Source: Proteiniphilum acetatigenes DSM 18083
Lineage (GTDB): Bacteria > Bacteroidota > Bacteroidia > Bacteroidales > Dysgonomonadaceae
Direction of reading: 5' to 3'
NCBI RefSeq assembly: GCF_000380985.1
Contig: NZ_KB905693.1
Span: forward strand, 62,001-126,000
Length of the DNA stretch: 64,000 nt
The notes under the pieces were generated by a model. It made no database searches. It was not told where the DNA came from and worked only from the letters and a program-made list of their open reading frames with translations. Positions within the stretch are counted from its first letter, which is position 1. Each line of letters starts with the position of its first letter. Shown one piece after another: positions 46,035 to 64,000 of this stretch. The translations under genes were made by a program, and so were the position numbers.

Positions 46035-46460
46035 ATGGCAATTATCAGACGTACAAACAACTGGTTACCGAGTATTTTCAATGACTTTTTCGGTAATGAA
46101 TGGATGGAAAACAGCAGCAGATCTGTTCCTGCCATCAATATCCAGCAAAATGAAAAAGGATTTACGGTGGAAGTTGCAGCTCCGGGTATGACCAAAGAAG
46201 ACTGTGTAGTGAGAATAGATGATGACAATAATCTGGTAATCTCTTTTGAGAAGAAGAATGAACAGGAAGAAAAAGATAAAAAGGGAGCTTACCTCAGACG
46301 TGAATTTTCTTATACGCAGTTCCAAAGAAGAATGGTACTGCCCCAGAATATAGAAAAGGATAAGATTTCTGCAAAAGTGGAAAACGGAGTTTTGACCGTT
46401 GAAATCCCCACTGTGGAAGAAGACAAAGTTTCTACATCCAAGCTGATTGAAATCCAATAA
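46035..46460 (+). CDS. Small heat-shock protein, Hsp20/IbpA family
   Basis: 141 residues. The alpha-crystallin domain runs from about 35 to 130 (EKGFTVEVAAPGMTKEDCVVRIDDDN, then FSYTQFQRRMVLPQNIEKDKISAKVENGVLTVEIP), and a C-terminal extension with IEIQ follows. It is an ATP-independent chaperone that holds unfolding proteins in solution. The N-terminal arm is short (MAIIRRTNNWLPSIFNDFFGN). It is preceded by several repeated motifs and closed by a strong bidirectional terminator. Confidence 0.96.
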   Translation: MAIIRRTNNWLPSIFNDFFGNEWMENSSRSVPAINIQQNEKGFTVEVAAPGMTKEDCVVRIDDDNNLVISFEKKNEQEEKDKKGAYLRREFSYTQFQRRMVLPQNIEKDKISAKVENGVLTVEIPTVEEDKVSTSKLIEIQ

Positions 46461-51866: not shown

Positions 51867-53312
51867 ATGACCCATTTTATTGCATTAGAAAATGTCGTTC
51901 CAGGGATGCCCGATTCTCCTTTTACCCGCCCGATCGACTGGCTAATTAACAGTGATGAGGTTTGGGGTGTTGTAGGACGGAACGGAAGCGGAAAGTCACT
52001 ACTTTCAGAACTGATATGCGGAAAGATAGCCGTTCAATCGGGAAAGATCAGGTATTATTTTTCGGATGATCCTGATAAAAATGCCGGTTCTCTGTTGCCT
52101 TCTCAACGGATCAGAAAGATCGAGTTCAATGCCGCCTATTCCCTGCTCGATTACCGTAAGTTGTTTTACCAACAACGATTCAATCACTCCGAGAATGAAG
52201 AAATACCACTAGTAAGTGAATTATTGCCATTAGACAACATATCACAAGAGAACCGTCTTATTTTCAACACTTTCCATATATCCGATCTAATGGACCGGAA
52301 ATTTATCCACCTGTCGAGTGGGGAATTACGGAAATTTCTTATTGCCAAAGTATTGCTCGACAATCCCAAGATGTTGATCTTTGATAATCCCTTTATCGGC
52401 CTGGATGAAGAGTCGCGTAAGGCACTCAACGATATGTTTATGTTTCTTCTTAACCGCTGTAATATCCGGTTGCTGTTCCTTGCCCCCTCAATGGATGATC
52501 TTCCTGCCTGCACAACGCATATTGTGGAGATGAAGCAGTGTACAATCAATTACCGTGGAGAGAAGACCGGTTTTATTCCTGAAAACCAGCCTACAGACAT
52601 CTCCCTTCCCGGAATCAACTGGGACGATTTCACGCTTGAAAACCGCAGATCCGAAAGCGATGAACTGGTATCGATGACCAAGGTGGATATTGCTTACGGG
52701 CAACGGACCATTCAGAAAGATATAAACTGGACTATCCAAAAGGATGAAAAATGGGCATTGCTGGGACCTAACGGTTCCGGTAAATCGACCCTGCTCAGCT
52801 ATATTTTTGCTGATAATCCGCAGGCATACGCAAAAAATATACGCCTTTTCGGGCGCAAAAGGGGAACGGGAGAAAGCATCTGGGATATCAAAAGGCGTAT
52901 CGGGTTCAGCTCTTCCGAATTGCATCTCTACTACAGGGAAAATGTGAGTTGCTCCGCAGTAGTCGCCTCCGGTTTTTTCGACAGTATCGGACTGTTCCGG
53001 AAATGCAACGCACAACAAGCTCTTCTGGCAGAGAAATTACTGGAAATACTCCATATATCTCATTTGAAAAACAGGCCGTTCCTGAAAGTCTCTTCAGGTG
53101 AACAGCGGCTGTTGTTCTTTGCAAGGGCCATTATCAAAAATCCGGAGTTGTTGATCCTCGACGAACCTTTTCACGGATTGGACGATTACAACAAAGAACG
53201 GTGTACCTCTATTGTCGGGTCTTTCGCACACCAGCCCGGAAAGTCGCTGATATACGTAACTCACCGGAAAGAAGAGATCCCCGATTGTATAGATCACTGT
53301 ATGCGGTTATAA
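51867..53312 (+). CDS. Double-domain ABC ATPase, ModF-like
   Basis: 481 residues with two nucleotide-binding domains and no membrane segment. First domain: Walker A GRNGSGKS (about 34-41), signature LSSGELRK, Walker B MLIFDNPF (Asn replaces the catalytic Glu, so this site may not hydrolyse ATP). Second: Walker A GPNGSGKS (about 300-307), signature VSSGEQRLL, Walker B LLILDEPF (intact). This arrangement is like ModF (PhrA) and other stand-alone ATPases whose function is unclear. No permease is adjacent. Confidence 0.88.
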   Translation: MTHFIALENVVPGMPDSPFTRPIDWLINSDEVWGVVGRNGSGKSLLSELICGKIAVQSGKIRYYFSDDPDKNAGSLLPSQRIRKIEFNAAYSLLDYRKLFYQQRFNHSENEEIPLVSELLPLDNISQENRLIFNTFHISDLMDRKFIHLSSGELRKFLIAKVLLDNPKMLIFDNPFIGLDEESRKALNDMFMFLLNRCNIRLLFLAPSMDDLPACTTHIVEMKQCTINYRGEKTGFIPENQPTDISLPGINWDDFTLENRRSESDELVSMTKVDIAYGQRTIQKDINWTIQKDEKWALLGPNGSGKSTLLSYIFADNPQAYAKNIRLFGRKRGTGESIWDIKRRIGFSSSELHLYYRENVSCSAVVASGFFDSIGLFRKCNAQQALLAEKLLEILHISHLKNRPFLKVSSGEQRLLFFARAIIKNPELLILDEPFHGLDDYNKERCTSIVGSFAHQPGKSLIYVTHRKEEIPDCIDHCMRL

Positions 53313-53381: not shown

Positions 53382-55616
53382 ATGAAGACAGTATATATCG
53401 GGACGTATCCGCCGCGCAGGTGTGGGATCGGAACCTTTACCCACAACCTGCGGCAGGCTATGTCCGGCAAAAAAGACCTCAAAAGGGGCAGGAACGGGAG
53501 CTTTGTTGTCGCAATGAACGATTTTGACCAGGAATACGAATATCCTGAAGAAGTCAAGTTTACTATCCGCCAGGAATATCAACACGATTATATGGCAGCG
53601 GCGGAATATATCAACCTCAGCGGTGCCGACTGTTGCATCCTGGAACATGAATTCGGAATTTTCGGCGGCCGTAACGGCGTATATATCCTCTCTCTCCTTC
53701 ATCGCCTTAAAATGCCTCTTGTCGTAACCCTGCATACCGTATTAAAAACTCCTTCCTATGACCAGAAAGAGATACTGCAACGGATTTGCCGGACGGCTCA
53801 CCGCGTGGTGGTCATGAGCCGGCAGGCCGTGGGTTTCCTTCAAAATATTTATGATGTGCCGAAAGAAAAGATAGCTTATATAGAGCACGGCGTACCCGAC
53901 TTCAAATTTTCCCGGCAGGAAGCCAAGAAAGAGTTCAAACTCGAAAAGAATAAAGTACTCCTGACCTTCGGGTTTGTCAGCCGGAACAAAGGCATCGAGA
54001 CGGTGATAAAGGCTTTGCCCGAAGTCGTTAAAAAACATCCCGAAGTATTGTATATCGTGCTGGGCAAGACGCACCCTCATGTACTCCGTTACATGGGTGA
54101 GGAATACCGTAATTACCTTATCCAGCTGGTGGACGAATTACACCTGGAAAATAATGTGGTGTTTATTGATAAATTTGCCGACGAACGGGAATTGTTCAAA
54201 TATCTCTATGCGGCCGACATTTACATTACGCCTTATCTCAACGAAGCGCAGATTACCAGCGGTACGCTCTCGTATGCCGTGGGCGTAGGGTGCCCTGTGG
54301 TTTCCACTCCCTATTGGCATGCGGTGGAATTACTGGCTGACAACAAGGGAGTACTCTTCGATTTCAGTAACCACGGGCAGTTGGCCGGTATCCTGATCGA
54401 TTTGCTGCACCATCCCAAAAAGCGGCTCCGCCTTAGCAGGAATGCCTATAAATACGGCTGTCAGATCAGTTGGCCCAAAATCGGCGTCAAATATAACAGC
54501 CTCGTCAAAAAAGTAACAGCCGAGCAGGTAAAAATCCCCAAAAAAGAATCCATCCCCTTCGACATAAAAATGCTGCCGCCCTTTTCACTGGCGCATGTAA
54601 AACGTCTTACCGACGATACGGGGATCATACAGCACACCAAATTCGGTATTCCCAACTTAAAGGAAGGCTATTGTCTTGACGATAACGCCCGGGCACTCAT
54701 CATGGCCCTGATGGCTTATAAGGAAACCAAAAACCGCGAAGCACTGGAACTATGTCCGGTTTATCTGAGCTATATCCATTATATGCAAAACGATGACGGC
54801 ACATTTCGTAATTTCTTGAACTTCGATCGGAGTTTTCTCGAGGAAAGAGGCTCTGAAGACGCCTTCGGGCGTGCTATATGGGCTATAGGATACATGATGG
54901 ATAATGCCCCGGATGATTCTTACTATCAAATCGGAAAATTCATGCTCGACAAGGCCCTTCCCGTATTCGACAGTCTTCGTTCGGTACGCAGCATCGCCAA
55001 TGTCATCATCGGTGTTTCTTACTATTTAAGAAAAAATATGGGGGATGATGTCATGATCGAACGATTGCGCAAACTCACCACTTTTTTGGCGGAGGAATAT
55101 CGCCAAAATGCCCACGACGGCTGGAAGTGGTATGAAATACTGTTTGCCTACGACAACGGCATGCTCCCCCTCGCCATGCTACACGCTGCAGATATCCTTA
55201 AGGATGAAGAAGTCCGGAGAATTGCCTTCGAGTCGATGCAATTCCTCTCAGATATTACCCTCAGGGAGGGGTATTTGTCGATTATCGGAAACGAAAAATG
55301 GTATCGTCGGGAGGGTACCCGCTCTGATTTTGCCCAACAGCCTGTTGATGCCATGTGCATGGTATTAATGTTTCATCAGGCATACAAAATGACCGACAAC
55401 AGCGACTACCTGAAAAAGCTTTTTGCTTCCTTCAGGTGGTTTCTGGGTGAAAACGATCTCCGTCTCAGCCTCTATAATTATGAAACCGAGGGTTGCTTCG
55501 ACGGCCTGGAACGAGATGGTATCAGCCGCAATCAGGGGGCTGAGAGTACACTCGCCTACCTGATTGCTTACCTTGTCGTTCTGGAGGCACACGAAGAATA
55601 TTACAGGAAAGATTAG
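53382..55616 (+). CDS. Two-domain protein: GT4 glycosyltransferase fused to a helical-toroid domain
   Basis: 744 residues. Residues about 1-375 are a GT-B glycosyltransferase of family 4 (start TVYIGTYPPRRCGIGTFTHN; nucleotide-sugar region EAQITSGTLSYAVGVGCPVV). Residues about 390-740 are alpha-helical with repeated aromatic and acidic segments (YCLDDNARALIMAL; NDDGTFRNFLNFDRSF; RNAHDGWKWYEILFAYDNGM), the pattern of an (alpha/alpha)6 six-hairpin glycosidase-like toroid. It may make and trim or measure a glycan. It leads a three-gene set with a second GT4 11 bp downstream and a GH130 gene. The domain split is clear; the sugar is inferred. Confidence 0.85.
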   Translation: MKTVYIGTYPPRRCGIGTFTHNLRQAMSGKKDLKRGRNGSFVVAMNDFDQEYEYPEEVKFTIRQEYQHDYMAAAEYINLSGADCCILEHEFGIFGGRNGVYILSLLHRLKMPLVVTLHTVLKTPSYDQKEILQRICRTAHRVVVMSRQAVGFLQNIYDVPKEKIAYIEHGVPDFKFSRQEAKKEFKLEKNKVLLTFGFVSRNKGIETVIKALPEVVKKHPEVLYIVLGKTHPHVLRYMGEEYRNYLIQLVDELHLENNVVFIDKFADERELFKYLYAADIYITPYLNEAQITSGTLSYAVGVGCPVVSTPYWHAVELLADNKGVLFDFSNHGQLAGILIDLLHHPKKRLRLSRNAYKYGCQISWPKIGVKYNSLVKKVTAEQVKIPKKESIPFDIKMLPPFSLAHVKRLTDDTGIIQHTKFGIPNLKEGYCLDDNARALIMALMAYKETKNREALELCPVYLSYIHYMQNDDGTFRNFLNFDRSFLEERGSEDAFGRAIWAIGYMMDNAPDDSYYQIGKFMLDKALPVFDSLRSVRSIANVIIGVSYYLRKNMGDDVMIERLRKLTTFLAEEYRQNAHDGWKWYEILFAYDNGMLPLAMLHAADILKDEEVRRIAFESMQFLSDITLREGYLSIIGNEKWYRREGTRSDFAQQPVDAMCMVLMFHQAYKMTDNSDYLKKLFASFRWFLGENDLRLSLYNYETEGCFDGLERDGISRNQGAESTLAYLIAYLVVLEAHEEYYRKD

Positions 55617-55627
55617 CACCGGGATCT

Positions 55628-56644
55628 ATGAAAATCGCGATTTTATCGCCCATCGCATGGCGAACGCCACCCCGGGAATACGGCCCATGGGAACAGGTAG
55701 CGTCCAACGTGACCGAAGGATTGGTACAGGCCGGCATGGATGTTACCCTTTTCGCCACGGGTGATTCCATGACTACAGCCGCTCTCGAATCTGTCTGCGA
55801 AACAGGTTACGCCGAAGACCCTTCAGCCGACGCAAAAGTGTGGGAATGCCTGCATATCAGTCACCTGATGGAACAAGCACACCGGTTCGACATCATACAT
55901 AACCATTTCGACTTCCTGCCCCTCACCTATTCACGGTTGATGCGTACCCCTATGGTTACCACTATCCATGGGTTTTCTTCACCTGCCATCCTGCCGGTGT
56001 ACAAAAAATATAACCACAGCAACTACTACGTATCCATCAGCAATGCCGACCGCAGCCCCGAACTGCGCTATACTGCCACGGTATACAATGGCATACACAC
56101 CGGGGATTTCTCATTCAACGCCTCTCCGGACGATTATCTGCTGTTTTTCGGCAGGATCCACCCGGATAAAGGCACACGCGAAGCCATCAGGATCGCCCGG
56201 CAGGTAAAACGCCGCCTCATCATTTCGGGATTAATACAAGATGAAGCCTATTTTGACGAACATGTACGCCCTTTCGTTGACGGCGATCGTGTGATATATA
56301 CGGGCAATTCCGGACCCGGACAGCGTGACCGGTTGCTCGGCCATGCCTATGCCCTGTTGCATCCCATCTCTTTCGACGAGCCCTTCGGATTGAGCGTTGC
56401 TGAAGCCATGATGTGTGGAACGCCGGTCATAGCCTTCAATCGGGGCTCCATGCCCGAGTTGATCCAGGACGGCAAAACAGGCTTCCTCACCGCCGGGGTC
56501 GACGAGTCGGCAGAGGCCGTAAAGCATGTCTCAGTCATTGACCGGCGCTATTGCCGCTTCTGGGCCGAAAACCGTTTCAGCGATAAAGAAATGGTAAGGA
56601 ACTATATCGATATATATGAAAACGTATTACAATCACACAGCTAA
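55628..56644 (+). CDS. GT4 family glycosyltransferase
   Basis: 338 residues, GT-B fold. MKIAILSPIAWRTPPREYGP is the N-terminal glycine-poor variant of the donor/acceptor fold, HNHFDFLP a typical loop, and EPFGLSVAEAMMCGTPVIAF (about 255-274) the EX7E donor-binding motif. It probably transfers mannose or glucose from an activated donor to a soluble acceptor, as there are no membrane or signal segments. It lies 11 bp after the GT4-toroid fusion and 35 bp before GH130. Donor and acceptor are inferred from context. Confidence 0.92.
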   Translation: MKIAILSPIAWRTPPREYGPWEQVASNVTEGLVQAGMDVTLFATGDSMTTAALESVCETGYAEDPSADAKVWECLHISHLMEQAHRFDIIHNHFDFLPLTYSRLMRTPMVTTIHGFSSPAILPVYKKYNHSNYYVSISNADRSPELRYTATVYNGIHTGDFSFNASPDDYLLFFGRIHPDKGTREAIRIARQVKRRLIISGLIQDEAYFDEHVRPFVDGDRVIYTGNSGPGQRDRLLGHAYALLHPISFDEPFGLSVAEAMMCGTPVIAFNRGSMPELIQDGKTGFLTAGVDESAEAVKHVSVIDRRYCRFWAENRFSDKEMVRNYIDIYENVLQSHS

Positions 56645-56679
56645 GCCGGAACATCCGGCTTGTAAAAAGAATAACTGTT

Positions 56680-58134
56680 ATGCAAGAAATTGTAAAAAGA
56701 AAAAAAGCGAGGATAGAAAGGGATCCTTCCCGGGTGATCACCCAGCCTTATATTCCGGGAGATCTTTCCAGGGTGAACAACTTACTTTCCAAGGTATTGG
56801 GCCTATCCGATACTACTGCTAAAAAGATATTGCTGCAAATCCGCCATGATTTCTCCGACCGGCACCGGAATCTGGAGGAGTTATTATTGATAAATTTTGA
56901 CAAGGTAGCCGAATATATTCCTCATACAGCCCACATCTCCCTGGCCAAGAAAATGCTTATAGGTTCTTATTTTACCAAGGAATACTCCATCGAGTCGGCC
57001 GCCCTTTTCAATCCTTCCATCGTCCTCCATCCCGATCAAAGCAATGTCCCTGAGGGCGGCGCCCGGTTTGCCATGAGCCTGCGTGCGACAGGCGAAGGAC
57101 ATATCTCATCGATCGTGTTCCGGAGCGGAATCATCTATAGCGATTTTTCGCTTATGTTCGACAGCGTATCGGAATTCGTGGAAACGCCCGCCATGCTTCA
57201 CGATCCCTTTTACGATAATCATCTTTTCTGCCTGACCCTTCAGGAAATGGGGGCCTGGAACGATACTTCCCAACGTATCCTGAGCCGGTTGCAACCGTTT
57301 TTTACTTATCAGGATCTCAAATTCAGTATTCATGAGGTATATCAGGAAGATCCCGGCAAAAGCGACGATAACGCCATCAATGCCATCAACTGGCTGGCCA
57401 ATTCCAATTACAAGATAAAGTTCAACGATAAGACCCAACTCTCGGAACGGGTGATCTATCCGGTCTCCGAGAATGAAAGCAAAGGTATCGAGGATGCCCG
57501 TTTCGTTCAGTTTACAAAGGACGACGGCAAGACTGTCTATTATGCCACTTACACTGCCTATAACGGCCAGCACATCCTGCCGCAACTGATCAAAACAAAA
57601 GATTTCATGACTCTCAACATATCCACCCTGAACGGGAATGCCATACAAAACAAAGGCCTGGCGCTGTTTCCCCGTAAGATAAACGGTTTATATGCCATGC
57701 TGTCGCGACAGGACGGCGAGAACAACCATATCATGTTCTCCGACAACCTGCACTTCTGGCATACTTCGCAGATTATCCAGGAACCGCTCTATCCCTGGGA
57801 ATTCATACAAATCGGGAACTGTGGATCCCCTATCGAACTGGAAGAAGGCTGGCTGGTGCTGACACATGGCGTGGGTCCCATGCGTCAATATTGTATCAGC
57901 GCCGTCCTGCTCGACCTCAACGATCCTACAAAGATCGTCGCACGACTGCGAGAACCCTTACTGTCTCCCAATGAGGAAGAACGGGTTGGATATGTGCCGA
58001 ATGTGCTTTACACATGCGGGGCGATGCTCTTCAACGGGCACCTGATCATTCCTTATGCCATGTCGGATATCACTACGCGTATCGCCATGGTGGAATTAAA
58101 AAGTCTCCTCAGGAAGATGAAACCCGCCGGTTGA
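56680..58134 (+). CDS. GH130 family beta-mannosyl phosphorylase or mannosidase
   Basis: 484 residues of family GH130 (COG2152), a five-bladed beta-propeller that acts on beta-mannosides, either phosphorolytically (giving mannose-1-phosphate) or hydrolytically. The proton-donor Asp is Asp272 in KGIEDARF. About 95 N-terminal helical residues (KKARIERDPSRVITQPYIPG onward) precede the propeller. SLRATGEGHISSIVFR is the subgroup's substrate loop, like that in beta-1,2-mannosidase or mannooligosaccharide-active members. No signal peptide, so the substrate is cytoplasmic. Its stop is 1 bp from the stop of the convergent MFS gene. Confidence 0.9.
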   Translation: MQEIVKRKKARIERDPSRVITQPYIPGDLSRVNNLLSKVLGLSDTTAKKILLQIRHDFSDRHRNLEELLLINFDKVAEYIPHTAHISLAKKMLIGSYFTKEYSIESAALFNPSIVLHPDQSNVPEGGARFAMSLRATGEGHISSIVFRSGIIYSDFSLMFDSVSEFVETPAMLHDPFYDNHLFCLTLQEMGAWNDTSQRILSRLQPFFTYQDLKFSIHEVYQEDPGKSDDNAINAINWLANSNYKIKFNDKTQLSERVIYPVSENESKGIEDARFVQFTKDDGKTVYYATYTAYNGQHILPQLIKTKDFMTLNISTLNGNAIQNKGLALFPRKINGLYAMLSRQDGENNHIMFSDNLHFWHTSQIIQEPLYPWEFIQIGNCGSPIELEEGWLVLTHGVGPMRQYCISAVLLDLNDPTKIVARLREPLLSPNEEERVGYVPNVLYTCGAMLFNGHLIIPYAMSDITTRIAMVELKSLLRKMKPAG

Positions 58135-58135
58135 C

Positions 58136-59446
58136 CTATGGCTTGCTACCGACCGGGAAAGGGTCATTATTTTTTGTGATCAGCAATTCATCGGTCATAT
58201 TGATGGTTCTCGGCCTGAGCACCGTCAATTGCAGGATGATAGCCAGGACAACCGCCCCGATCATTACGACGAAGACGGTATTCATATGACCGGCATCCAG
58301 CGCTTTGCCCAACTCGTTGGTGATTACGGCACCTGCCGATATACCCGCGAGGTTCATAAACCCGTAACCGGTAGCTCGGTAGCGCGACGGTACAAACTGG
58401 CATAAGATCGGCATATTATTCACATCGAAGATCCCGAAACCCAATCCGAACAAAAGTGCTCCTGTAACGATCATAAATAATCCGCTCCCGTAACCGATCA
58501 ACACCAACGCCGGAATGGTCAGTCCCAATCCGATCACACCGGTATAGATCCTTCCTTTCAGTCGCTTCGCCACCCAACGGTCGGATATATAACCGCCGAC
58601 CAATACGCCGATCAATGATGCCATCGCCAACGTCATAGTCGATAACGGCCCCGCCTGTTCCATACCCATATTAAGCGATTCCGAAAACAGGGTCGGCAGC
58701 CAGTTTTTAGTCGCCCATCCCGGTAAACTCGGCGCGGAAAAGTAAAAGAGGATTATCCAGAATGCAATATTGGAGAAAAGCATAGTCAACCCTTTCCCCA
58801 TCGCACTTAACTCCTGTCTGACGGATCTTTTCCGGCTCGTATCGATCACATAGGTCTTCTTTTCACGGAGAAAGGCAATCAATATCAAACTATATACCAT
58901 TCCGATAAGGCCAAAAGTATGAAAAGTAAACTGCCAGGAGGTTCCGGCAGCCAGGGTCGCCCCAAATCCTCCGAAAGCCTGTCCCAGATAGATCCCCGAA
59001 GTGTGGAATCCGATTGCCAGCGACCGCGTTTTCCCCTGGTGATAGTCTGCGATCAGGGACAGCGCGGCAGGAACATAAAAGGCCTCACTGACACCCATGG
59101 CGGCCCTCAGAATATATAACTGGTCTATATTCCGGGCATACCCCATGGCAAGGGTTACTCCCGACCAGACAAAGAGGCTGACCACAATCAGCCATTTGCG
59201 GTTCAGCCGGTCGGCTATGATACCCGACAACGGGCTCATAAAAGCATATATCCACAGGAAAACCGCCATCAGCCGTCCGAAGTTGGTTGCGGTAACCAGT
59301 TCCGCAATATCTATCTCCATAAATGGTTTCATGGTAGCAAGCATCTGGCGGTCGAGGTAATTAAGCAGCGCCACGAACCACAGCATGGCTACAACCAACC
59401 ATGGGTAGGACTTTTTTGACGTCAAATTTGACATGCTGTTCTTCAT
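58136..59446 (-). CDS. Major facilitator superfamily transporter (ACS-like)
   Basis: 436 residues, twelve hydrophobic helices in two halves. WFVALLNYLDRQMLATMKPFM matches the first helix and loop of anion:cation-symporter-type MFS carriers, which take up hexuronates, sialic acid or similar sugar acids, and GIIADRLNRKWLIVVSLF is the MFS motif-A region. It is the last gene of the minus-strand run that begins beyond the right edge, after the sialidase-like gene. Substrate is not known. Confidence 0.92.
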   Translation of the reverse strand: MKNSMSNLTSKKSYPWLVVAMLWFVALLNYLDRQMLATMKPFMEIDIAELVTATNFGRLMAVFLWIYAFMSPLSGIIADRLNRKWLIVVSLFVWSGVTLAMGYARNIDQLYILRAAMGVSEAFYVPAALSLIADYHQGKTRSLAIGFHTSGIYLGQAFGGFGATLAAGTSWQFTFHTFGLIGMVYSLILIAFLREKKTYVIDTSRKRSVRQELSAMGKGLTMLFSNIAFWIILFYFSAPSLPGWATKNWLPTLFSESLNMGMEQAGPLSTMTLAMASLIGVLVGGYISDRWVAKRLKGRIYTGVIGLGLTIPALVLIGYGSGLFMIVTGALLFGLGFGIFDVNNMPILCQFVPSRYRATGYGFMNLAGISAGAVITNELGKALDAGHMNTVFVVMIGAVVLAIILQLTVLRPRTINMTDELLITKNNDPFPVGSKP

Positions 59447-59528
59447 ACGATGAATTTATCTTTTTCGTTAGACGGAATCCACATGAAACCATTTCCTTGT
59501 GCGGGAATTTTTCCCATGCCCTTTCAAT

Positions 59529-60581
59529 TCAGAACTTCACTTGTACGTATTTAATCCTTTCACGATTATAGGTATAGGTCACATGGACATTCCCTTTCTT
59601 ATCCTGGATAATAGCGGGGTAGCTGAATTCACCGGAGGGCTGGTCTTCCAGATCAATCAGTTTCTCCCATATTTTACCGTCGTATGAGCCTGCTATCGCC
59701 AGTTTATTCCTGCCGGAGGTAATCGGATTGTAAATGATTAACTGCAAGCCGCTGGATAGGGTGACGGCATCCGTACCGGAGTTGTTATTGGGTAACTCGG
59801 TCGGTGCCAGGGGTGTCCATGTCTTCCCGTTATCATACGACCAGGACTCCACCACACTTTCGTTCTTCGAACGGCAGAGGATCTGCAGGGCTCCGTTTTT
59901 GTGAAACAATACGGAAGGCTGGATAGCGTCAAAACCGTTATTGTCGATCTCTATTTTTTCCCAGTCCGTCAGATCCTGGTTAGACATTTCCATATAGACA
60001 TTCCATTTGCCTACAATTTCTATGCTGGTAGGGTAGAGTATTTTGTCTCCGGGGATGATCACCGGTTTGTTTTTGATCGGTCCGAGGCATCCACGCGGAA
60101 TAGTCTCCATGGCAGACCAGGTCTTACCCTCGTCGGTCGATATCTTATATTCCCCCCACCAGGTACTGGGACTCGGCCCCACTTTGTAATAAAGGATCAG
60201 GTCTCCGTTTTCTCGTTTGAACAAGACCGGATTCCAGCAGGGAAACCGCTGCAATTCATCCTGTATGCCATCGGCTACCATAACAGGCGCACTCCACTGG
60301 CCGTTTTTGAATCCGGAGGTATAAATACTCACGTCGGGATGCCTTTCGTAAGTACCTCCGAACCATGCCGCCAGTAAGCCATCATCTGTCTCAACAATGG
60401 TTGAGGCATGTGCCGATGGCACCGAAGCCGGTTCCGGGATTATTTCCGAATGAAGAATCACAGGTTTGATGGCGCGTAATCTTTCTCTTTCCGTTTGTCC
60501 GGAAAAGGATTCATTTGCGGATAACCGGCCTGCTGATAGTAACAGCAGGCATAACAATACTGTAATTTTACTATTTACCAT
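59529..60581 (-). CDS. Sialidase-like BNR/Asp-box beta-propeller protein, secreted
   Basis: 350 residues with a signal peptide (about 1-22). Several Asp-box (SxDxGxTW-like) repeats are seen: ISTDEGKTWSAM, WSYDNGKTWTPL and SYDGKIWEKL, the fold of sialidases. However the FRIP motif and its catalytic Arg, needed by true sialidases, are not found near the N-terminus, where the sequence reads SAHASTIVETDDG. The protein may therefore be a different exo-acting hydrolase or lyase of the same fold. It follows PhoA and precedes the MFS gene on the minus strand. Confidence 0.82.
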   Translation of the reverse strand: MVNSKITVLLCLLLLSAGRLSANESFSGQTERERLRAIKPVILHSEIIPEPASVPSAHASTIVETDDGLLAAWFGGTYERHPDVSIYTSGFKNGQWSAPVMVADGIQDELQRFPCWNPVLFKRENGDLILYYKVGPSPSTWWGEYKISTDEGKTWSAMETIPRGCLGPIKNKPVIIPGDKILYPTSIEIVGKWNVYMEMSNQDLTDWEKIEIDNNGFDAIQPSVLFHKNGALQILCRSKNESVVESWSYDNGKTWTPLAPTELPNNNSGTDAVTLSSGLQLIIYNPITSGRNKLAIAGSYDGKIWEKLIDLEDQPSGEFSYPAIIQDKKGNVHVTYTYNRERIKYVQVKF

Positions 60582-60648
60582 GCGATAATTTTATTTGTTT
60601 ACAACAATAACGGACGCCTGGATTATCATATTCCGGGATGAAAATGGT

Positions 60649-61746
60649 TTATTTTTCCGTTCCAAAACCATATAAATTCAGAATTTTAGTGAGAATATCG
60701 GTATTCTGGTATATACCGGCAAATTCAACAGCGCCAGCACCATAAGCAAATACGGGAACCATCACAGAGGTATGTCCTGTTGAGGCATAGGTCGCTTCCA
60801 CTTCTCCGGTTGACAGATCACCGCCGGTAAGCGCCATACCACCCGTCTCATGGTCTGCCGTAATAATAACCAACGTATTCGGGTCCTGATCTGCGTAATC
60901 CAAAGCCACTTTAATCGCCCGGTCAAAGTCCAGCATTTCATTCACAGTGGCGTCTTTTTCATTCGCATGGCAAGCCCAATCGATTTGTGAACCTTCTACC
61001 ATCAGGCAGAAGCCTTTATCATTGTTTTTCAGTAGATTGATCGCTGCTTGGACGCTTTCGGGAAGAAATTCTCCCCTTTCAGGATAGAGAGCCGGATGTT
61101 CGTCTGCCACAAGTCCTGCCAGTTTGCCTGTAGTCACTTTCTTAACGTCATCCATATTGAGCGCAACCTGAAAACCTTTGGCTTCCAGTTTATCCAACAG
61201 GTTTTCATTATCAGAACGGGCATCAAAGTATCTTTTTCCGCCTCCGATAAAAACCGTAATGTCGGAGTTCAAAAAATCTACGGCAATTTCTTCTTCCATT
61301 TTACGGCTGGGCTGGTGTGCCACGAATGATGCCGGCGTAGCATGAGTAACGGCACAACTTGCCACCACGCCGGTTGAGAGACCGTTTTCTGCGGCATATT
61401 CAAGGATCGATTTAACCGGCTTCCCGTCTACATCAACGCCAATGGCTCCGTTCTTTGTTTTGGTTCCGCATGCGATGGCTGTACCACCTGCCCCGGAGTC
61501 TGTTATATAATTGTTTGCAGAGTACGTTTTGGAAAATCCTACAAACTGACACTTTTCCAGATGGAGCGATCCCTTATTTGCCGTCAGTCCCGCATATACC
61601 TGGCTAACGCCCATTCCATCTCCGATCATTATGATCACGTTCTTTACCTGTGGAGTGGTCTCCTGTCCGGTTTTATCGCCGGCAGATGAGCATTGAACAA
61701 AAAATACCGATAATACAATAAGAAGCGATAAATGAATTCTTTTCAT
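60649..61746 (-). CDS. phoA: Alkaline phosphatase, lipoprotein form
   Basis: 365 residues with lipobox FFVQC (Cys19). Removes phosphate from a wide range of esters outside the cytoplasm. Conserved metal and catalytic sites: Asp43 in IGDGMG, nucleophile Ser84 in DSGAGGTA, the ITADHETGG (metal Asp and His) and STGHTSVMVPVFAYG motifs (metal His). At 365 residues it is shorter than E. coli PhoA. It sits in a run with a secreted sialidase-like protein and an exported sugar isomerase-like gene, suggesting phosphate or phosphosugar scavenging. Confidence 0.95.
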   Translation of the reverse strand: MKRIHLSLLIVLSVFFVQCSSAGDKTGQETTPQVKNVIIMIGDGMGVSQVYAGLTANKGSLHLEKCQFVGFSKTYSANNYITDSGAGGTAIACGTKTKNGAIGVDVDGKPVKSILEYAAENGLSTGVVASCAVTHATPASFVAHQPSRKMEEEIAVDFLNSDITVFIGGGKRYFDARSDNENLLDKLEAKGFQVALNMDDVKKVTTGKLAGLVADEHPALYPERGEFLPESVQAAINLLKNNDKGFCLMVEGSQIDWACHANEKDATVNEMLDFDRAIKVALDYADQDPNTLVIITADHETGGMALTGGDLSTGEVEATYASTGHTSVMVPVFAYGAGAVEFAGIYQNTDILTKILNLYGFGTEK

Positions 61747-61871
61747 AATTTAATTATATTTCGTGAGAATGATTATCCTATTAGTTTTACACATTAATTT
61801 TTTTATCAAAGAATCTAAGATATAGAGAAATAAGAATATCTATTAGTTGTTATGCAGTTAATTCCTCTGAT

Positions 61872-62720
61872 TTATAAAGAGCGAAACTGCTCCCGCATAT
61901 AAAACAAAGCCGGTTGTATTTCCTTATCCAGATCTTTCCATCTGCATTCAATAGAAACGCAACCTTTATACCCGATTTGTTTCAATGCCTTGAAATAGGG
62001 CCTGAAATCATCGCCCTTGGTGCCGGGGGAGGTGCGTTCCTCCCTCTCAGCAATATGGCAATGACGGATATACTTACCATATTTCACTATCTCCGATGCA
62101 GGTTCATCTTCCCGCATCATATGATATATATCGCACAGTAACTGTACATTGGGATGATCGACCGCTTCCACGATCCGGGCGCCTTCCTCCAGGGAATTGA
62201 TCAGGTTGGTTTCCGACCTGTTCAGGGGTTCGATAACTACCGTCACTTTATACTTCTGAGCCAATGGAGCGATCTGTTTACAAAAAGAAATAAATTGTTC
62301 CGTAGCTTCTTCCTTACTGAAATTTTCTGGTACATTGCGGGCTTTACCGCTTCCGAAAACAATGTAGGGAATATTGGCCATACCCGCCCTGCGTAAAGCA
62401 GATTCCGCCCAGACCACTGCTTCATCATGTCTGGCTTCAGGACCGATCAGAGGCAAACTGCCGGGAATAAAACTGGTACAGGAAATAATTCTGGCCTCTA
62501 ATTTCCTTATTTCATCCAGATGTTCCTGGAATTCGGCATCACTCTTGTCAGGCATCAGGTATGACACGTTCGACTCGACATACGTATACCCTGTCGCTTT
62601 GAGCAACGGGTAATTGGATACACTTGTACACACAGCAAATTCCGGCTGGTAAGGATCGGAAAAGGATGCCATTCCAAGCGTAAGGCATACCAGAAGTATA
62701 TTATAATAAAAAGGCTTCAT
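61872..62720 (-). CDS. Exported sugar phosphate isomerase/epimerase-like TIM barrel protein
   Basis: 282 residues. A signal peptide (1-18, MKPFYYNILLVCLTLGMAS) is unusual for this fold. The rest is the xylose-isomerase-like TIM barrel (AP_endonuc_2): VVIEPLNRSETNLINSLEEG carries a metal-binding Glu, LLCDIYHMMREDEP the Asp and His, RHCHIAEREERTSPG a His, and CVSIECRW the last Glu. Four metal ligands are thus present, and an isomerase or epimerase acting on a periplasmic sugar is likely. It lies between the Gfo/Idh/MocA oxidoreductase and phoA. Confidence 0.88.
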   Translation of the reverse strand: MKPFYYNILLVCLTLGMASFSDPYQPEFAVCTSVSNYPLLKATGYTYVESNVSYLMPDKSDAEFQEHLDEIRKLEARIISCTSFIPGSLPLIGPEARHDEAVVWAESALRRAGMANIPYIVFGSGKARNVPENFSKEEATEQFISFCKQIAPLAQKYKVTVVIEPLNRSETNLINSLEEGARIVEAVDHPNVQLLCDIYHMMREDEPASEIVKYGKYIRHCHIAEREERTSPGTKGDDFRPYFKALKQIGYKGCVSIECRWKDLDKEIQPALFYMREQFRSL

Positions 62721-62832
62721 AAGGCAATATTTATTTTAGAACCAAGACTTTGGATCTGGGAATTGAAATGTGAGATGTGGGAATCGAAAACTTTTCATTT
62801 TTCACTCTTCATTCTTAACTTTTAGTTCTATT

Positions 62833-64000
62833 TTAGTACTTGAATATTTTTCCTCCCGCCATAATCTGTTGTGCTGCCGGATCATATACTGCCCGCATAC
62901 CTGTCCGGTAGGCGGCGTTTGCCATAGCGCAGGCAATAGTATGGCTATGCCCTGCTTCTACCGGGCAATTGGTGGCTACATTCTTCGCTCTGACACACTC
63001 CATCCAGTTACGCATATGGGCCGATGTGAGGGGATCACCTCCCGTGTTGGCTTCCGCCTCCACGGTAACACTCGGCAGAGTGAACTTGTCGAGCCGGTTG
63101 GCCTTTAATCCCATGGCAGATGCCTCGCGTTCACTCAATCCGCCCTCGGGAGTAATTTCGTTGGTATCCAGATTCAACATTCCGCCGTTCGAATAGTACA
63201 GCTCCTTTGTCCCTCCTGCCGAATTGCTGAAACGGGACGAATAGACCACCTGAAATCCTTTGTCCTGATTGTCCAGCGGCCCGTAATCGAATACCGAAGT
63301 CAGCGTATCGGCATTGGTGCGGCCGTCTTTCCACTGGTAAATCCCTCCGTTGGATACCACACTGCGCGGATAGGGGAAGCCGGTGAACCAATGCACTGTA
63401 TCGATCTGGTGGCACATCCATTGTCCCGGTATGCCCGACGAATAAGGCCAGAACAGGCGGTATTCAAGGTATTTGCGTGGGTCCCATGCCACTTTGGGAC
63501 GGTTCATCAGATAGCGGTTCCAGTCCACATCGCTCTCCCGGATAGAGGCACATAAGTCCGGCCTTCTCCAACGCCCCGGCTGGTTCACGTTCCAGCACAT
63601 CTCGGCAATCACGATATCACCGAATTTTCCGGATTGGATATAATCATGGGCAGCATGGTAATTCGCCCCACTACGGCGCTGTGATCCTATCTGCACCACG
63701 ATGCCGCTTTCCTTGCAGGCTTTTAATGCGGCATTGGCATCATCCATGGTTTCTGCAAACGGTTTTTCGCAATAGGCATCCTTACGCGCTTTTGCCGCTT
63801 CCACCAGGTGCAACGCATGCTGGAAATCTGCGGTGCTGATAATGACCGCATCAATGTCGTTCCGGTCATACAGTTCTTCGTTATTACGGCACAAGGCGAC
63901 ATCCCATCCGGTTTTTTCCCTGATATAGGCTCTTCCCTCCTCACGACGGCGGTTCCAGATATCCGACAGTGCCACCAGTTCGAAATTCAACTCCCTGGCA
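62833..64000 (-). CDS. Gfo/Idh/MocA family oxidoreductase, N-terminus beyond the window
   Basis: The frame is open to the window edge; the residues before LNFELVALSDIWNRR, including the NAD-binding GxGxxG, lie outside, so the TTG at 63990 is not a true start. What remains (about 389 codons) has the conserved YCEKPFAETMDDANAAL motif with the catalytic Lys, and the C-terminal beta-sheet domain (SQRRSGANYHAAHDYIQSG; MCWNVNQPGRWRRP). It is an NAD-dependent sugar or cyclitol oxidoreductase, of the subgroup with MOC domain extension seen beside exported isomerases of this kind in Bacteroidetes. The gene is incomplete. Confidence 0.9.
   Translation of the reverse strand, partial: ARELNFELVALSDIWNRRREEGRAYIREKTGWDVALCRNNEELYDRNDIDAVIISTADFQHALHLVEAAKARKDAYCEKPFAETMDDANAALKACKESGIVVQIGSQRRSGANYHAAHDYIQSGKFGDIVIAEMCWNVNQPGRWRRPDLCASIRESDVDWNRYLMNRPKVAWDPRKYLEYRLFWPYSSGIPGQWMCHQIDTVHWFTGFPYPRSVVSNGGIYQWKDGRTNADTLTSVFDYGPLDNQDKGFQVVYSSRFSNSAGGTKELYYSNGGMLNLDTNEITPEGGLSEREASAMGLKANRLDKFTLPSVTVEAEANTGGDPLTSAHMRNWMECVRAKNVATNCPVEAGHSHTIACAMANAAYRTGMRAVYDPAAQQIMAGGKIFKY

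Follow-up and report, generated by a model that had tools for sequence, protein, structure and literature searches.

What is made by a run of three genes that joins two GT4 glycosyltransferases to a GH130 protein inside the bacterial cell, and are these genes kept together at all? The question is raised by a window of 64,000 nucleotides (the whole stretch of DNA that was analysed) from Proteiniphilum acetatigenes DSM 18083 (contig NZ_KB905693.1, positions 62,001 to 126,000), in which positions 53382-58134 hold the genes called T1, T2 and T3 here. Gene limits are those of the open reading frame list:

53382-55616, + strand: T1, 744 residues, a GT4-toroid fusion
53382-54536, + strand: N-terminal half of T1 (residues 1-385), GT4 (GT-B) domain with PF00534/PF13439 and Foldseek matches to MshA, PimB' and PimA
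54537-55616, + strand: C-terminal half of T1 (residues 386-744), helical toroid related to YPO2471 (7TEM)
55628-56644, + strand: T2, 338 residues, GT4 protein related to glucosylsucrose synthase (TeGSS), optional cluster member
56680-58134, + strand: T3, 484 residues, GH130 protein extended at the N-terminus and carrying a helical insertion (about residues 180-240)
57430-58119, + strand: PF04041 region of T3 (residues 251-480), with E271, D272, K325, R343, Q377, H396 and D463

The initial annotation had described two GT-B transferases and a GH130 enzyme (with Asp272) in one tight run without signal peptides. Open reading frames, Pfam matches and alignment agree with this description, the genes being separated by 11 bp (T1-T2) and 35 bp (T2-T3), and a signal-like hydrophobic N-terminus was seen by eye on none of the three proteins (no signal-peptide program was run), which apparently makes them cytoplasmic enzymes.

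A conserved pair within a variable cluster

The module formed by T1 and a GH130 protein is real and widely conserved, as its homologues and their arrangement recur beyond chance. The pair spans Bacteroidota, Alphaproteobacteria and a fusobacterium, and is sometimes carried by plasmids beside heat-shock genes. When the own genome and 60 relatives are considered, 42 of 61 match T3 at E ≤ 0.001, ordinary GH130 included, and 28 hold a T3-type protein (at least 298 bits). Among 26 T3 loci (L036-L061), the fusion is present in 22, a toroid lies 133 bp from the contig start in one, a toroid without GT4 is found in two (one of them, L056, below the BLAST threshold and seen by alignment), and the short contig L047 holds no toroid; T3 and T1 lie on opposite strands in several of these loci. 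Seen from the toroid, 80 named loci, which are the best 80 of at least 586 ranked by toroid similarity to the window (mostly Bacteroidota) and therefore lean towards close relatives, comprise 79 fusions and one contig-edge toroid. A GH130 gene (>100 bits) lies within 8 kb in 69 of them: 63 have the T3 type, 14 a 309-residue type, and 8 both.

The same association is found among 395 genomes of the phylum, where the toroid occurs in 89 (93 before dropping four weak ones; weak or partial matches in G101, G236, G171 and G203 and weak second matches in G313, G091 and G445 were excluded), 72 of which have a frame of fusion length. T3, counted among the matches listed at a cut-off of at least 333 bits, is present in 56 genomes, and all 56 also hold the toroid (46 with the fusion, 10 with short frames only), against 33 of the 339 others (Fisher 4e-45, without correction for kinship). 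A toroid (fused in 25 cases, unfused in 13) is no more than 5 kb away from 38 of the 58 T3 copies. At least eight genomes with a distant T3 have a different GH130 gene directly adjoining the fusion, and the fixed association is therefore that of the fusion with some GH130. The fusion and a GH130 protein of at least three kinds (T3, the 309-residue and a 343-residue type) thus form a fixed pair, and the three-gene set is not fixed.

The expectation that the three genes would be kept together in relatives consequently holds for T1 with GH130 and fails for the full set, T2 being present in 55 of the 80 toroid loci (the other 25 include some clipped by contig ends) and in 13 of the 26 T3 loci, one of these truncated. 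The fusion had also been presented as novel: at 72 of 395 genomes it is not rare. For the module of GT4-toroid and GH130, searches of open-licence PMC papers listed no description by title or abstract start.

The own genome holds a second, divergent pair on contig C3 (L064, 8439-11773), consisting of a GH130 protein of 343 residues and a GT4-toroid fusion of 745, and similar pairs are seen at L200-L202. Other genes recur near T1: a set of a GDE_C/GH100-like protein, another GT4 and a PIG-L-family protein at L070 (12570-15672) and 6 to 8 other loci (L067-L146), and proteins of 186 residues (15 of the 80 loci) and 116 residues (13 of the 80), for the most part upstream (L068-L108).

T3, a separate branch of GH130

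T3 belongs to GH130, with a PF04041 match at 2.2e-31 (109 bits against a gathering score of 26) and a Foldseek match of the propeller to 9gph (E 1.4e-20), and is about 180 residues longer than the Teth514_1788 chain (303 residues). Its AlphaFold2 model (31 sequences; mean pLDDT 89.9, pTM 0.86) has the 1,2-beta-oligomannan phosphorylase Teth514_1788 as top Foldseek match (E 1.4e-20), followed by beta-1,2-mannobiose phosphorylases, Uhgb_MS, beta-1,4 enzymes and hydrolases, so that by predicted fold T3 is nearest to the beta-1,2-mannoside phosphorylases. Assignment to GT108, whose kinship had been invoked to link T3 with the reserve glycan of Leishmania, was rejected: 6q50 comes only at rank 48 by fold, a remote match, and is absent from the sequence matches at E ≤ 1.

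According to the available part of PMC4599007, GH130 enzymes cleave beta-mannosides with inversion, their phosphorylases bind phosphate by three basic residues that hydrolases have lost, and beta-1,2 specificity is marked by a lysine (199 in BT3780). Asp272 of T3 aligns with the conserved aspartate of characterised GH130 enzymes (Asp92 in Teth514_1788, in the available part of PMC4264767). In a recount of 109 T3 rows (>200 bits, <650 residues, uncovered positions excluded, L186 absent), the −1 subsite is kept, with N111 in 106/106, the catalytic D272 in 107/107 and the second aspartate D463 in 107/108, and K325, at the beta-1,2 determinant position, is lysine in 108/108. Two presumed phosphate-site residues, R343 and H396, are each present in 107/108 rows. 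That R343, Q377 and H396 mark the three phosphate columns is presumed from the contrast between phosphorylases and hydrolases, not from a structure: in a 64-row alignment (34 selected T3 rows; the 722-residue L209 protein, a weak GH130 of L207 and L186 omitted), these columns hold bases in all six PDB phosphorylase or synthase rows, with K/R at the third column, and Gly, Leu and Asn in two PDB hydrolase rows.

A 100/100 branch of length 1.18 sets the 34 T3 rows apart in the tree, whose outgroup sampling is limited to eight characterised chains, some of them incomplete. T3 thus appears as a separate branch of GH130 with no characterised member in this tree, and its placement inside a characterised clade was discarded. 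It also stands apart from the beta-1,4 rows (plant or N-glycan type), whose company had been named beforehand as fatal to the idea of a storage glycan. Nor does T3 resemble the BT3780-type beta-1,2-mannosidases, as it keeps bases at two columns and shows no signal-like N-terminus by eye. It scores far below NF058598 (27.5 against 550 bits) and below the curated beta-1,2-mannobiose phosphorylase equivalogs NF052550 (139.5 against 450) and NF050092 (137.6 against 550). The other GH130 partners of the fusion differ at the same positions: the 309-residue type has a base at 377 in 13/13 and arginine instead of lysine at 325 in 9/13, the beta-1,2 lysine therefore not being common to all partners, and the 343-residue type has K325 in 5/5, with Tyr (3), Lys (1) or His (1) at column 377. 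At L209 (7703-9871), a 722-residue frame (an unchecked gene call) carries a GH130-like domain and extra sequence beside a 329-residue GH130 and T2.

The fusion protein T1 and its toroid

T1 is a member of GT4 by its GT-B fold and its GT4 Pfam domains (PF00534 at 2.8e-21). The toroid said to be fused to this first transferase is borne out by the AlphaFold2 model (44 sequences; mean pLDDT 87.2 overall, pTM 0.72), in which a GT-B half is followed by a predicted all-helical half, and by 7TEM at rank 11 of the Foldseek search (best 50 of 1443 matches, as for the ranks that follow). The first half matches GT4 enzymes, which include users of GDP-mannose (PimB' with GDP-Man at rank 2, PimA at rank 17) as well as of UDP-sugars (MshA, BshA), and the donor is therefore not fixed by the fold. 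The EX7E motif of GT4 enzymes, with its two glutamates, is incomplete: the first glutamate is kept in 99/109 non-plasmid and 9/13 plasmid fusions, and the second position is leucine in 105/109 and 13/13.

No Pfam family lies above cut-off in the toroid half, GH88 being rejected at 17.5 bits against a curated cut-off of 26.6, and the toroid without GT4 of L056 has none at E ≤ 0.001. Among solved structures, the toroid profile finds one strong relative by sequence, YPO2471 (7TEM, E 8e-66). In an alignment of 130 toroids (109 non-plasmid fusions, mostly of Bacteroidota, 13 plasmid fusions and 8 short rows), D433, D434, R437, N477, R497, W583, W686, N691, D707, N717, E721 and S722 are identical in all 130. 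Four of the short rows, L058, L074, L089 and L092, may be fusions truncated by a contig end, at or near which they lie; the other four, L055, L191, L196 and L207, are toroids without GT4. The acids are conserved in fused and unfused toroids alike, which favours an active role in glycoside processing over that of a scaffold. When the toroid was compared by profile with one AGE epimerase and one GDE_C/GH100-like protein from its neighbourhood, the probability stayed below 1%, a weak test with a single sequence on one side. Toroids without GT4 are found beside ABC importer and GH130 genes at L196 (7881-14412, with a gene annotated DUF1861), L055 and L056, the last two being lipoprotein-like by eye; such sets may be a form of the module devoted to uptake.

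T2, an optional glycosyltransferase

T2 matches GT4 in Pfam at 3.3e-22, and its nearest solved protein is the Thermosynechococcus glucosylsucrose synthase 7fg9 (E 9e-74; profile 6e-97), an enzyme that uses UDP-glucose and sucrose (PMC9909042, available part). Residues Y18, R176, K181, E251 and E259 are invariant in a 19-row alignment, the first four corresponding to Y18, R179, K184 and E256 of TeGSS. T2-like genes (E ≤ 1e-60) occur in 79 of the 395 genomes, mostly with weaker scores of about 200-310 bits. T2 is a dispensable, non-fixed member of the cluster, and its suggested part as builder of an oligomannoside sits poorly with a closest solved relative that is a UDP-glucose enzyme. On the Rhizobium sp. 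Pop5 plasmid (L197, 510-11017), a T2-like GT4 gene and an annotated amylo-alpha-1,6-glucosidase gene lie amid GroES/GroEL, Hsp20 and Do-protease genes.

Plasmid-borne loci

The toroid is present on 27 plasmid records, many of which annotate the fusion as 'glycosyltransferase family 4 protein'. T3-type GH130 occurs in 13 of the 15 loci surveyed among them, including L186, where some 6 kb separate it from a T1 whose annotation is split and where it is typed by a match of 39% over 99%; none was found in the Deinococcus stretch (T1 and a second GT4) or the Croceicoccus stretch (a toroid without GT4). Mannose-1-phosphate guanylyltransferase (ManC), mannose-6-phosphate isomerase, phosphomannomutase or AGE epimerase genes are annotated adjacent or close to T1 in 10 of the 15. 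The ManC of pSAMIE_2 exceeds the TIGR01479 cut-off (392 against 373 bits), and this plasmid also has a partial mannose-6-phosphate isomerase match and a mutase of the PGM/PMM family whose subfamily is not decisive. Four plasmid isomerases match TIGR00218, all below cut-off, and the plasmid AGE protein matches PF07221, with no NCBIfam equivalog over cut-off. An annotated ManC gene adjoins T1-T3 on three more plasmids and on pBAR3. Together with the fold and the beta-1,2 lysine of T3, these genes sustain the mannose theme of the initial annotation. Chaperone genes (GroES/GroEL, or GrpE/DnaK with a J-domain protein or Hsp20) lie in the stretch in 5 of the 15 loci, all from sphingomonads, partly near-copies, in two arrangements.

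A proposed pathway and its alternatives

What, then, would such enzymes make? Our preferred reading, with a probability a little under one half (about 0.48), is that T1-T3 are a pathway of the cytoplasm for a small oligosaccharide containing mannose, which the cell probably makes or mobilises when under stress. The GT4 domain of T1 would start or extend the glycan from GDP-mannose in alpha linkage, the toroid, seen as a helical barrel active on glycosides and bearing conserved acids, would trim or transfer it, and T3 would reversibly add or remove beta-1,2-mannosyl units in exchange with a pool of mannose-1-phosphate that feeds GDP-mannose. Where present, T2 may add or cap with another sugar, likely glucose. 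Among the roles of reserve, protectant and signal, a stress protectant or a reserve is favoured. That the product is a protective glycan of the cytoplasm spread between bacteria by conjugative plasmids along with chaperones is a far bolder proposal, and we consider it improbable.

Several observations weigh against this reading. GT4 enzymes are retaining and GH130 enzymes act on beta linkages, so the product of T1 is not the expected substrate of T3, and the cycle originally proposed, with two GT4 enzymes building an oligomannoside and GH130 recycling it, is not closed. From this mismatch it follows that the likely product of T1 is an alpha-linked primer or backbone and that T3 acts on beta-1,2-mannosyl ends, which would come from GH130-type synthesis; alternatively, T1 itself may be unusual. 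The third presumed phosphate column of T3, 377, is Gln in 105/108 rows and Lys in 3/108, which makes phosphorolysis uncertain, so that hydrolysis, synthesis or the use of another nucleophile may also be considered. GH130 is not seen at 11 of the 80 toroid loci (some on clipped stretches), and 20 of the 58 T3 copies lie more than 5 kb from the toroid or on another contig. The surveyed plasmid loci are 15 of 27 and partly near-copies of one another; 5 show no mannose or AGE gene, and 10 show no chaperone gene. None of the six window proteins scanned is a GDP-mannose enzyme (non-plasmid loci were not searched systematically), and a protein of the glucan-phosphorylase family is likewise encoded in the own genome, so that a reserve role would not be unique to T1-T3. 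Lysine does occur naturally at column 377 in the T3 homologues of L091, L093 and L095, which suggests that the change to Gln is not fixed.

Could the glycan be built on glucose instead? T2, and perhaps T1, would then make an alpha-glucoside from UDP-glucose as a compatible solute, and T3 would only cap or uncap it with mannose. The kinship of T2 with TeGSS, including the invariance of its four equivalent residues in 19/19 proteins, points this way, as do the chaperone and amylo-alpha-1,6-glucosidase neighbours of its relative on the Rhizobium plasmid and an alpha-amylase-family gene adjoining another on a Sphingomonas plasmid. However, T2 is missing from many loci, some plasmid stretches where no second GT4 is annotated have ManC, isomerase or AGE genes beside T1-T3, and the stacking Trp10 of TeGSS is Ala10 in T2. 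This explanation is the strongest of the competitors and still an unlikely one. Phosphorolytic salvage, in the cytoplasm, of imported beta-mannosides (of yeast, N-glycan or plant type) seems less probable again: it would account for the importer and GH130 genes found with unfused toroids, for the MFS gene that follows T3 on the other strand, and for the Thermoanaerobacter GH130 pair, whose cluster also holds ABC transporter, GT4 and ManC genes (PMC4264767, available part), but no importer is annotated beside T1-T3 in five plasmid runs (pSAMIE_2, the three ManC plasmids and pBAR3), and the fusion binds the toroid to a glycosyltransferase, which is a sign of biosynthesis. A role in cell-envelope glycans, glycolipids or protein glycosylation is common for GT4 enzymes, and PimB' and PimA are among the fold neighbours of T1. 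We nevertheless hold it to be the least probable of these alternatives, since no flippase or polymerase was found among six scanned window proteins (the remaining ones were not searched) or is annotated in the same five plasmid stretches, and a GH130 partner without signal peptide would be left unexplained.

If the proposed mannose pathway is correct, an intracellular mannose-based glycan would be added to bacterial stress physiology or carbon storage. The module joins a GH130 branch that has no characterised member in this tree and an unusual residue at the presumed phosphate site to a toroid without Pfam family, and both are easily assayed.

Comparison with known systems

Among the descriptions consulted, the nearest genetic context is that of the Thermoanaerobacter beta-1,2-mannoside phosphorylases Teth514_1788 and Teth514_1789 (PMC4264767, in its available part, as for the statements that follow). 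They share with T3 the GH130 fold, the Asn/Asp/Asp of the −1 subsite, the beta-1,2 lysine and the lack of a signal peptide, and their cluster resembles T1-T3 loci in having a GT4 and a mannose-1-phosphate guanylyltransferase nearby. In contrast, T3 has an extra N-terminus, an insertion, its usual Gln at the presumed third phosphate column and a branch of its own, and the Thermoanaerobacter cluster includes ABC transporter genes, with no fusion toroid described there. The beta-1,2-mannose theme is shared with Leishmania mannogen (see also the available part of PMC8950772), and the fold of 6q50 is distantly similar; unlike GT108, T3 is a GH130 protein, and a storage mannan would be putative for T1-T3, for which mannogen may serve as a lead. 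For T2, the full-length match and the catalytic residues liken it to TeGSS and alr1000, although TeGSS is reported beside sucrose-phosphate synthase (PMC9909042, available part), unlike T2. YPO2471, a 'putative exported protein' by its PDB name, is of the same toroid family as the C-terminal half of T1, but is unfused, whereas the toroid of T1 is joined to GT4 and lacks a signal-like N-terminus. A transferase, a further domain active on glycosides and homologous to GH144 endoglucanases, and a phosphorylase are also combined in the GT84-CY-GH94 protein, in which phosphate shortens the chains; that is a single membrane protein acting on glucose, whereas T1 (GT4 and toroid) and T3 (GH130) are separate proteins with a putative mannose substrate.

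Genomic setting

Two genes flank the cluster directly:

51867-53312: double ABC ATPase gene, just before T1
58136-59446, − strand: MFS transporter gene, just after T3

Promoter and terminator scans stay at about background (8 against 7.9 in shuffled sequence, and 8 against 5.6 with a standard deviation of 2.3). A ManC-like gene lies elsewhere in the own genome (283.6 bits, below the cut-off of 373). From 58136 to 64000, the − strand carries the MFS transporter, a BNR-repeat protein and more genes, by eye a separate catabolic set, and about 7 kb upstream of the cluster (46035-46460) a small protein resembles, by eye, an Hsp20-type chaperone.

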